Shown piece after piece: positions 7,891-11,212 of a stretch of 44,019 nucleotides of DNA. The stretch spans positions 1 through 44,019 of the forward strand of contig JAAZOM010000009.1 in assembly GCA_012797775.1 (NCBI GenBank). The letters run 5' to 3'. The position numbers and the translations under genes are program-made. This DNA is from Candidatus Kuenenbacteria bacterium (GTDB lineage: Bacteria > Patescibacteriota > Patescibacteriia > UBA2196 > GWA2-42-15). Under the pieces are notes generated by a model that searched no databases, had not been told where the DNA came from, and saw nothing but the letters and a program-made list of their open reading frames with translations. How positions within the stretch are numbered: the first letter of the stretch is position 1; the number at the start of each line of letters is the position of its first letter.

Positions 7891-7931
7891 AAAATAGGCT
7901 GGTTTTTAATAAAGACTGGCCTATTTTTTAA
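7891..7931 (+). terminator. Intrinsic terminator after the P-loop gene
   Basis: AAAATAGGC (7891-7899) pairs with GCCTATTTT (7919-7927), followed by further T. A second GC-rich hairpin with a T tail lies at about 7948-7970. Confidence 0.75.
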
Positions 7932-8049: not shown

Positions 8050-8345
8050 GATTTTTTGCTGGTATTTTTGGGCAAATGGAGTTATAATAATAGGACCCAA
8101 AAATGCAAGTAAAAAATTCCAAAAACAAAAAAATATTCCAGCCCCTGCAATCGCCGGAGATTTTTGGTTAAACGAAATTTTCTGCAGTTGTGGGGGTCTG
8201 GAGTAGAAGAATACCCCTTTAAAAATTACATAACAAAATAGAAGGAGGTAAAAGGAAAAGAAAATCGTCCCCTTTAACCAGTCGGCCCTTGGGAAGGGCC
8301 TTAATTCACATGTGTAAGAAGAAAGTTTATGTGGAGGTATTGAAA
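8050..8345 (+). other. Long structured 5' leader, no gene
   Basis: About 300 nt without a convincing reading frame. It holds an interrupted long-range stem (CCAGCCCCTGCA near 8139 against TGCAG...GGGG...CTGG near 8183-8202), an orphan Shine-Dalgarno-like GAAGGAGGT near 8241 with no start codon after it, and a perfect hairpin GGCCCTT-GGG-AAGGGCC at 8284-8300 about 45 nt before the ATG. I match it to no known riboswitch. A cis-regulatory role is an inference. Confidence 0.4.
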
Positions 8346-11135
8346 ATGAAGAAAGCGATGTTTTTGATGTTTATGTTGGCCGTCTTTTTGGCCAATGTTT
8401 TCGCAGGCAATGAGCCAACCTATGGAGTGGCCAATGTTGACGGCAATGCCAGTGAATGGAACCTGACCAACGATTTTTTTGCCGACATGTATCGGGCAGC
8501 CAAGCCCGATAAACCAGTGGAGTCCAAACTCTACCTGCGTTACGACTGCCAGACCAAAACCCTGTATGCCTTGGTGCTGGTTGTGCCGGACGTGCAGGCC
8601 CTGGTCTTGCCCGACGATGCTTTCATAAAACTGGGCAACAGTACCAAACTGGTTGACGGCAATTATGGTGATGACGGTGTCGTGCCAGATTTTGCCTGGG
8701 TCGGTTTGAGCCAAAGTGGCCAGGTGGCTACGGGTTGGGAGGCCTCGGTTCATCTCGAGCCCGGCTATTACCCAGACCTTAATGTCCACATACAAGTGAT
8801 CCACGACGGCCAACAAACTTCGGCTGTCAAAGATCGCGCGATCCCACTGCTTATTGATTGCCCACCCCCGACTGGTGAGTTCAAAGTGGGCATCAAGGAT
8901 GATATTTTCCTTGGACAAAAAACGCTTGCCTGGACTGGTTTTAAAACCGGCAATCAGGATGGCGGTTGTCCTGGTACTTATCAAGCCAAAGGCAAGGTGT
9001 CGATCGATACCACGGCTGGACAAAGCGTGTTGAATTACAGCGTCAGTGGGCTGGTTGTCGTGACGTATGAATGCGACGGCCAGTACCCGCCCATGGCATT
9101 CAGTGTCGTCAAAGACAGTCTGTTCGCCAAAGTAAAAGGCATCTGGCAGCTTTTGGGCCAGAAATCTTTTGCTGGCATGACCCTTGCCTGCGGTCAGACA
9201 TGGACTGGTAATTTTGCTTACAATTTTACTTATCAGCCCGGTATGACCAAACTGAAAAAGGTGGACGTGGCATATTACGGTGAGGGACAGTCTGTTCGTT
9301 TTGAAGAGGAATATAATCTGCCCGCGCCAGTCATGCAAAACGGCTGTATCCTGGTGTATCATCGCTGGGACGGCCAGCCGGAGAAATTTTTGGGCCAGGT
9401 TTGTTATACTGATCAACTGCCCAAAGTTTTCAATGTTGATTCCACCGTCACCTACAGCGAGCCGGGCGATTATAGCTTCAAAAACTATTTTCGCACCAGC
9501 GACGGTCAGAGCGGCGAGGCCACGCACTCTTTTCTGATCAAAGAATGTCCGCCTGAAAAAGAGCTGGAGCTTTTTAAAGTCTGGCTTTACAACGGACAGG
9601 AGGGTGTGCCGCCCGATGTATTGGAAAATTTTCGGGTAGTGGCCACGAGCGATATCGACAAACTGGTTTATGCAAAAATTGGTGGCGTGCTCGCCTGGCG
9701 TGATACTCAAGGCAATCTTCGTAATAAGCTCAAATACATTCTTGCTTCGAGCATTAATGTGGTTGAGGAAAACCCGCCTTTCGGTTGGGTAAACACCGGC
9801 GGCCTTGGCCAGATCACGCCGTTGAACAGCAAGCATTATGTGTATAACTCGAAAGAGTTTACCGAGTGCGATCCGGACGATTTCAATGTGATGATCATTG
9901 TGCAGAAGGATGGCCAGCCCGTGGCCGGAGTGACTATGAACGTCTACATTCCGGTGATTCTCGGGGGGGACGGCGATCATCTGCTTACCTTCAACTCGGA
10001 CGGATCGGTCACGGCCAAATATGTGGGTAAAGGGAATGGCGATTATGTCACTGGGCAATGCCATTCTTTCGACTACTGGTATTATCGTTGGGGTGGCAAG
10101 GGCAATCTGTTGGAAAACAGCTTACTTTGCTGGGATAACAAAACCCTTCCTACACGGCCTGTGGTATTTGAGTTGTTTGCACCGCAGGGTCAGGTTTTTG
10201 CCATTAATGGCCAGCCCAAATATACCCGCTCTATTCGGTTTGATTTGAAGACCCCTGGCATGGATGCCGAGGGTCATGTCAATATCATCCCCAATTTCCC
10301 GGAATGGTATACCGATTGGGTGTTTGAGTTGGTCGGCGCGGCACAATTTGCTGCCAATCCAATCACTTTTGCGGGGGCACCAGAACGTCTTGTTTTTGAA
10401 CAAGGTACGCCAGCTTTTCCTGGTGAGGATTGGAACAATGCCGTTGATTTGGATCATGACGGCTGGGATGGAACGGTTACTGCCAAGGGGCCGGCCAATA
10501 ATCCCGCTGGACCGGCTTGGGCCACCTTCAGTTTTGCCGATGGTAAACCCCGGGGTATTACCGGCATTTATATGCAAACGGCTGGACCCGGTCTCAGTAA
10601 CGAGAGACAAGCTGCCAAGTTTGATATTTACGGCAGCTTGGATGGTGTTAATTACACTCGGCTGCTGAGGCAAACACGTGAGTGGGGTGGCGCATTGCGC
10701 AATTTTAATGTTGCCCCTATGAACGTGCGCTATGTGAAGCTGGTGCTTAATACGCCGCAATATACCAGCGGCAACTGGCGCCAGCTCGTGGAATTTGGTG
10801 TGGTTTTTGGACAGGTGCCTTCTTATGCCAGGACCACTGGAGAAGACGAGTTGGAAATCGCAGCGGCCCCAGCCGAATTTCAACTGGAACAAAACTATCC
10901 CAATCCGTTTAATCCAGTCACTTCGTTGCGTTATCAGTTGTCGCAGGATGTACACGTGACGCTGGCGATATTCGATATCTCCGGTCAGCAAGTGGCGCGG
11001 CTGGTGGATGGAAATCAGGCGGCGGGATGGCATAACGTCAGATGGGATGCCGCGGGCATGCCAAGCGGCGTATATTTTGCCCGCATCGTCGCCGGCGAGT
11101 TCTCCGACGTGAAACGGATGATGCTACTCAAATAA
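8346..11135 (+). CDS. Large secreted protein with F5/8-type-C-like domain and type IX-like C-terminal sorting domain
   Basis: 929 residues from the ATG at 8346, chosen because GGAGGT (8333-8338) precedes it and the signal peptide MKKAMFLMFMLAVFLANVFA follows. Residues about 25-170 (VDGNASEWNLTNDFF, LYLRYDCQTKTLYALVL) look like a CBM9/DOMON-type beta-sandwich. About 720-840 (AKFDIYGSLDGVNYTRLL, VRYVKLVLNTP) fit a discoidin/F5-8C carbohydrate-binding fold. The C-terminus FQLEQNYPNPFNPVTSL...FDISGQQV...GVYFARIVAGEF...KRMMLLK is the classic T9SS type A (Por secretion tail) signal of the FCB group. GC is visibly higher (about 50% in lines I counted, against roughly 40% nearby), and codon use differs. 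Probably horizontally acquired, or from a chimeric join; no T9SS gene is visible here. Confidence 0.85.
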   Translation: MKKAMFLMFMLAVFLANVFAGNEPTYGVANVDGNASEWNLTNDFFADMYRAAKPDKPVESKLYLRYDCQTKTLYALVLVVPDVQALVLPDDAFIKLGNSTKLVDGNYGDDGVVPDFAWVGLSQSGQVATGWEASVHLEPGYYPDLNVHIQVIHDGQQTSAVKDRAIPLLIDCPPPTGEFKVGIKDDIFLGQKTLAWTGFKTGNQDGGCPGTYQAKGKVSIDTTAGQSVLNYSVSGLVVVTYECDGQYPPMAFSVVKDSLFAKVKGIWQLLGQKSFAGMTLACGQTWTGNFAYNFTYQPGMTKLKKVDVAYYGEGQSVRFEEEYNLPAPVMQNGCILVYHRWDGQPEKFLGQVCYTDQLPKVFNVDSTVTYSEPGDYSFKNYFRTSDGQSGEATHSFLIKECPPEKELELFKVWLYNGQEGVPPDVLENFRVVATSDIDKLVYAKIGGVLAWRDTQGNLRNKLKYILASSINVVEENPPFGWVNTGGLGQITPLNSKHYVYNSKEFTECDPDDFNVMIIVQKDGQPVAGVTMNVYIPVILGGDGDHLLTFNSDGSVTAKYVGKGNGDYVTGQCHSFDYWYYRWGGKGNLLENSLLCWDNKTLPTRPVVFELFAPQGQVFAINGQPKYTRSIRFDLKTPGMDAEGHVNIIPNFPEWYTDWVFELVGAAQFAANPITFAGAPERLVFEQGTPAFPGEDWNNAVDLDHDGWDGTVTAKGPANNPAGPAWATFSFADGKPRGITGIYMQTAGPGLSNERQAAKFDIYGSLDGVNYTRLLRQTREWGGALRNFNVAPMNVRYVKLVLNTPQYTSGNWRQLVEFGVVFGQVPSYARTTGEDELEIAAAPAEFQLEQNYPNPFNPVTSLRYQLSQDVHVTLAIFDISGQQVARLVDGNQAAGWHNVRWDAAGMPSGVYFARIVAGEFSDVKRMMLLK

Positions 11136-11179: not shown

Positions 11180-11212
11180 AGCCCTCGAGGTGAAAAACTT
11201 CGAGGGCTTTTA
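11180..11212 (+). terminator. Intrinsic terminator after the large secreted protein
   Basis: AGCCCTCGA (11180-11188) pairs perfectly with TCGAGGGCT (11200-11208) around an 11-nt loop, followed by TTTATTTT. Confidence 0.85.

Follow-up and report, generated by a model that had tools for sequence, protein, structure and literature searches.

The window analysed here, 44,019 nt in length, is the whole of the 44-kb contig C9 of its source genome (G000: 930 kb in 31 contigs, rated 100% complete and 0.37% contaminated), and it carries a forward-strand gene for a multidomain protein whose last domain belongs to the type A C-terminal domains of type IX secretion (T9SS; Table 1). An earlier sequence-only reading had called this tail a textbook case, and the description is borne out by both curated profiles, TIGR04183 at 39.2 bits (cut-off 23) over residues 851–926 of 929 and PF18962 at 29.6 bits (cut-off 27). 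With an F5/8 type C domain ahead of the tail, the protein is best read as a putative ligand- or glycan-binding surface protein. The same reading had credited the gene with a promoter and a terminator of its own; the terminator is clear, whereas the promoter is unsupported, since promoter-like sites (6) are no more numerous than in shuffled sequence (5.0 ± 2.3). The 5′ leader gave no riboswitch or known RNA family above gathering score in an Rfam search, and its hairpin found no convincing match among the other tail-gene loci compared. Two open frames lie antisense to the gene, at 8301–10064 (−; 587 aa) and 10122–11033 (−; 303 aa), and are probably shadows of its higher GC.

Table 1. Features of the tail gene and its immediate surroundings (window coordinates)
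Feature	Position	Strand	Description and basis
Inverted repeat, ~37 nt	7891..7927	.	3′ of the preceding gene; self-match; probably that gene's terminator
Long hairpin in 5′ leader	8134..8205	+	leader of 301 nt scored, fold z −4.55
Ribosome-binding site GGAGGT	8333..8338	+	7 nt upstream of the ATG; from sequence
CDS, 929 aa	8346..11135	+	Sec-exported (predicted) multidomain protein with T9SS type A C-terminal domain; frame open, ATG at 8346
Predicted signal peptide, residues 1–20	8346..8405	+	MKKAMFLMFMLAVFLANVFA|GNEP, without lipobox; heuristic scan
N-terminal module, residues 21–175	8406..8870	+	sequence relatives in other phyla
Mid-body, residues 176–697	8871..10436	+	matches no Pfam family
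F5/8 type C domain, residues 708–816	10467..10793	+	discoidin-like, ligand-binding; PF00754 36.1 bits, cut-off 28.2
Type A T9SS C-terminal domain, residues 851–929	10896..11132	+	NYPNPFNP..., GVYFARI, ...KRMMLLK; profiles; predicted Ig-like beta-sandwich
Intrinsic terminator	11180..11208	+	12-bp stem, then TTTATTTT; clear

A GC content some 10 points above that of the neighbouring genes, estimated earlier from part of the sequence, holds against the 25 other genes of the window, with GC of 0.511 and GC3 of 0.561 vs 0.401 ± 0.020 and 0.408 ± 0.041, respectively (z 5.4 and 3.8). This excess is partly general to tail genes of the class, which average about 5 points above their own flanks, vs about 11.6 points for the window gene; across the class, tail-gene GC tracks genome GC (r 0.72).

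Tails above cut-off were found in all nine genomes searched within the order and in 97 of 380 genomes of the class, with up to 7 per genome and about three quarters of the sampled class genomes having none; a phylum-wide sample yielded tails in 10 of 379 genomes, 8 of these outside the class. Given its recurrence throughout the order and in 97 class genomes, the tail is a resident trait, not a one-off acquisition: multi-copy in the order, frequent in the class and patchy across it. Tail-bearing class genomes include assemblies of one to three large contigs, and tails lie on contigs of 1.116 Mb (G463:C2), 947 kb (G496:C1) and 651 kb (G487:C1), with housekeeping genes adjoining those inside very large contigs. 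The source genome itself holds four tails on three contigs: the window has one, C21 has two, and C25 has one at its start, in a gene that appears to continue the one truncated where C21 begins, because both contig ends share the same peptide. The tail genes of C21 and C25 adjoin lgt, a dsbA-like gene, rpsU (a weak S21 match) and yqeY.

The body of the window protein has a different distribution, with no relative among the 380 class genomes; a search with the full protein matched 73 of them, the best matches, same genus included, spanning approximately residues 750–929 and mostly 829–929. Its N-terminal module shares 53–64% identity with modules of Chloroflexota, Acetothermia and Saprospiraceae MAGs, where the relatives carry other C-termini, and no relatives of the module were found on viral contigs. 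These features fit a mobile extracellular module, with the window body assembled or imported late, and the lack of body relatives among the class genomes makes a later import of the body probable. The transfer proposed in the sequence-only reading is thus likely for the body (no class relative, foreign-looking GC3) and does not stand as a one-off import of the tail; similarly, the many CPR (Candidate Phyla Radiation) relatives that it had named as the mark of a native gene exist for the tail and are lacking for the body. In a Chloroflexota MAG (L031 7827–9269, +), the same N-terminal module is joined to what by eye is a PEP-CTERM-like tail, so that one module is found with more than one kind of surface-sorting tail. 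An Acetothermia relative (L032 7905–10196, +) ends, also by eye, in a FlgD/T9SS-like Ig tail, and its genome (G388) gave two TIGR04183 matches and one weak partial SprA match.

A Pfam survey of 70 class tail proteins identified M23 peptidases (5), C25 peptidases (5), BNR repeats, dockerins, and carbohydrate-binding and adhesive domains, a domain content by which these proteins are predicted exoenzymes and binders. A C25 (gingipain/PorU family) domain is combined with a type A tail in, for example, L133 3318–7154 (+; genome G655), L139 637–3573 (+; genome G462) and L161 527–3499 (−; genome G436); the G436 and G462 layouts measure about 980 aa, and that of G655 adds a gingipain-type propeptide domain.

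In a set of 84 full-length class tails, the tail forms the exact protein C-terminus in 77, the last residue is K or R in 79, and PNP and GxY are each present in 82; in an alignment of 52 CPR tails, P3, P5, G31, G59 and Y61 are invariant. A heuristic scan predicted a signal peptide in 57 of the 65 tail ORFs having a 5′ end, and a lipobox in none. The B, D and E motifs of the C-terminal domain have been mapped to PorV contacts (PMC10202324), and the residues at its C-terminus are important for translocation in P. gingivalis (PMC11285876). An AlphaFold2 model of the window tail (pLDDT 91.4) is an all-beta Ig-like sandwich with 6 strands by DSSP (the family being seven-stranded), and the tail profile matches the solved C-terminal domains 8glk, 8glj and 5hfs, latent PorU (6za2) and FlgD Ig domains; a phmmer search of the window protein against the PDB gave nothing useful, the tail profile doing better. 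Fold comparison of the model retrieved 8glk, 8qb1, 5m11 and 6za2 but matched many other Ig folds equally well, and VIA-align was not discriminating, because its rows were tied at about Z 8 among many Ig folds.

The CPR tail resembles type A domains of Bacteroidota cargo (TIGR04183/PF18962) in scoring above the curated cut-offs, in its position at the very C-terminus, in PNP, GxY and terminal K/R, in a predicted Ig-like sandwich and in the Sec signal peptide of the protein that bears it, but it is found in a CPR class and in an order without SprA or Omp85. The Saprospiraceae tails compared differ from the CPR tails, nearly all of which end in K/R and carry NPFNP. The Ig-like domain of the flagellar hook cap protein FlgD (PF13860) is similar in sequence core and fold (7eh9, 7bhq, 3osv), although the window protein falls below the cut-offs of the FlgD models (PF13860 25.4 vs 27; NF005176 12.6 vs 230) and has no FlgD N-terminus, and the tails sit at the C-termini of unrelated exoproteins. 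Being one short module placed C-terminally on many exported proteins whose bodies are unrelated, the tail also follows the logic of the signals of the PEP-CTERM/exosortase and LPXTG/sortase systems, unlike which it is a folded domain without a transmembrane helix or cleavage motif.

Tails of proteins with non-homologous bodies resemble each other more when they come from one genome (0.453; 66 pairs) than when they come from different genomes (0.374), and none of 1000 permutations of the genome labels gave a within-genome likeness as high. A tail tree built on 80 columns, in which many forks are unresolved, contains genome-specific clades (4/4 tails of G203, 4/4 of G496, four of G655 and three of G462), also clusters the C21/C25 pair of the source genome, and places the window tail beside tails of the same order (G386) and the same class (G521). 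In the sister genomes G379 and G380, orthologous tail proteins are 70% identical in the body and 43% in the tail, a divergence that fits tail swapping and also relaxed constraint. Together, the within-genome likeness, the tail clades and the G379/G380 pair suggest that tails are duplicated and exchanged within CPR genomes. The window tail is up to 54% identical to class tails, up to 39% to plasmid-borne Rhodothermus/Salinibacter tails and up to 31% to Saprospiraceae tails, in a comparison whose FCB side is mainly one Saprospiraceae genome, so a closer FCB source of the window tail may lie among the broader FCB phyla (Ignavibacteriota, KSB1 and others).

A further link to FCB bacteria lies in the residue following the signal peptide. 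Most signal-peptidase I substrates of Bacteroidota start with Q (PMC5837995), and Q is at +1 in 22 of 51 CPR tail proteins vs 2 of 26 non-tail ORFs of the same loci (Fisher P 0.0015; cleavage sites from a simple heuristic predictor). This excess points to FCB ancestry of many tail proteins. The class lies outside Bacteroidota, and the window protein departs from the Q-rule with G at +1 (VFA|GNEP).

Bacteroidota use the T9SS C-terminal domain to pass proteins through the outer membrane. According to reviews, such domains are restricted to Bacteroidota and track the T9SS core genes (PMC10202324), T9SS genes being absent outside the FCB phyla (PMC11285876), and in the literature searched no paper connected T9SS with the Candidate Phyla Radiation. 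Searches of the nine order genomes, one subset of the tail-bearing class genomes, found neither Omp85/BamA (PF01103; 0/9, with 7 of 14 control genomes positive) nor SprA (TIGR04189; 0/9, with a Saprospiraceae positive control at 2347 bits, the same control genome holding 116 tail matches), in agreement with the initial view of the host as a CPR-like cell lacking an outer membrane and Por machinery. The assignment of the lineage to CPR is based on genome size and on kinship among the genomes sampled. T9SS export needs both, Omp85/BamA serving to insert SprA and PorV in the outer membrane; with both absent from the nine genomes, export of the order's tail proteins by this route is very unlikely, which points to another role for the domain there. 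A profile search of the source genome for C25 (PorU family) gave no match, though the controls gave none either.

That a divergent or incomplete T9SS, together with an outer membrane, is present in the order and was missed is barely credible: four of the order MAGs are 84–91% complete and SprA is one long model, which leaves some room for an oversight, but both markers were absent from every order genome with controls positive, and the source genome is rated complete. Similarly improbable in the extreme is an assembly chimera, which the sequence-only reading had offered as the alternative to transfer, or contamination of the bin by FCB DNA. The change in GC at 8346 and 11135 speaks for either, but tails occur in all order genomes and in 97 of the class, some on near-complete contigs and inside very large ones next to housekeeping genes, and those of the source genome adjoin lgt, dsbA-like, rpsU and yqeY genes of their own. 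Chimera and contamination were rejected on this recurrence.

The reading we prefer, at a probability of about one half, is that of a resident CPR gene, one of a group of FCB-derived secreted enzymes and adhesins domesticated in the class, with the tail reused after Sec export as an Ig-like module for surface docking or stabilisation, a function in CPR cells that we infer. The class would have acquired the module from FCB bacteria by transfer, after which the module would have spread to different bodies within genomes, the window gene gaining its body later; the protein would leave the cell by Sec alone with its tail kept, and in a single-membrane cell the tail may serve as a small docking or stabilising domain holding secreted enzymes and adhesins on the surface, probably via the same exposed motifs (PNP, GxY and C-terminal K) with which the Bacteroidota domains bind PorV. 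Against this reading stand the equally good match of the fold to many Ig-like domains, the diverged tails of G379/G380, the roughly three quarters of class genomes without tails, and the chance that tail paralogues of one genome arose by plain duplication with no receptor in common. An unlikely alternative is that the whole protein (signal peptide, body and tail) arrived recently from FCB bacteria as a vestigial passenger, its tail only a folded cap, as the GC3 of 0.56 vs 0.41, the body without class relatives, the relatives of the N-terminal module in distant phyla and the Bacteroidota hallmark of +1 Q in the class tail proteins as a group might suggest; however, tails throughout the class retain the motifs and their place at the very C-terminus, the window tail clusters with those of CPR, the +1 residue of its protein is G and not Q, and the genome-specific clades, which unite tails of unrelated bodies, indicate that tails have spread and are used within genomes.

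Dedicated sorting, in which an envelope enzyme or receptor of the class reads the tail and perhaps cuts it in a PorU-like manner as a single-membrane analogue of type IX secretion, would explain why tails are homogeneous within a genome, as expected with one receptor reading them all, and would give a role to the C25 domain, of the PorU/gingipain family by Pfam match, in 5 of 70 tail proteins. Against it, the source genome gave no C25 match, albeit in a search with silent controls; sorting of this kind is doubtful, as is the wider proposal that in the CPR class as a whole the C-terminal domain no longer depends on SprA, PorV and an outer membrane, and that some envelope receptor or enzyme particular to the lineage recognises it and fixes exoenzymes and adhesins on the surface, a process in which a C25 peptidase would perhaps take part in some class members. 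The rule used in annotation that the tail implies T9SS is broken, the domain being common in a CPR class and the order examined being without the machine. The tail provides a marker for proteins that CPR cells secrete or carry on the surface, among them M23 and C25 peptidases and proteins with lectin-like and adhesive domains, a set that speaks to the open question of CPR contact with hosts, and its distribution suggests gene flow from FCB to CPR bacteria. Adjoining tail genes at another locus is a small secreted protein of 224 aa (L010 367–1041, −) with a predicted +1 Q, which ends in F and matches no Pfam family.
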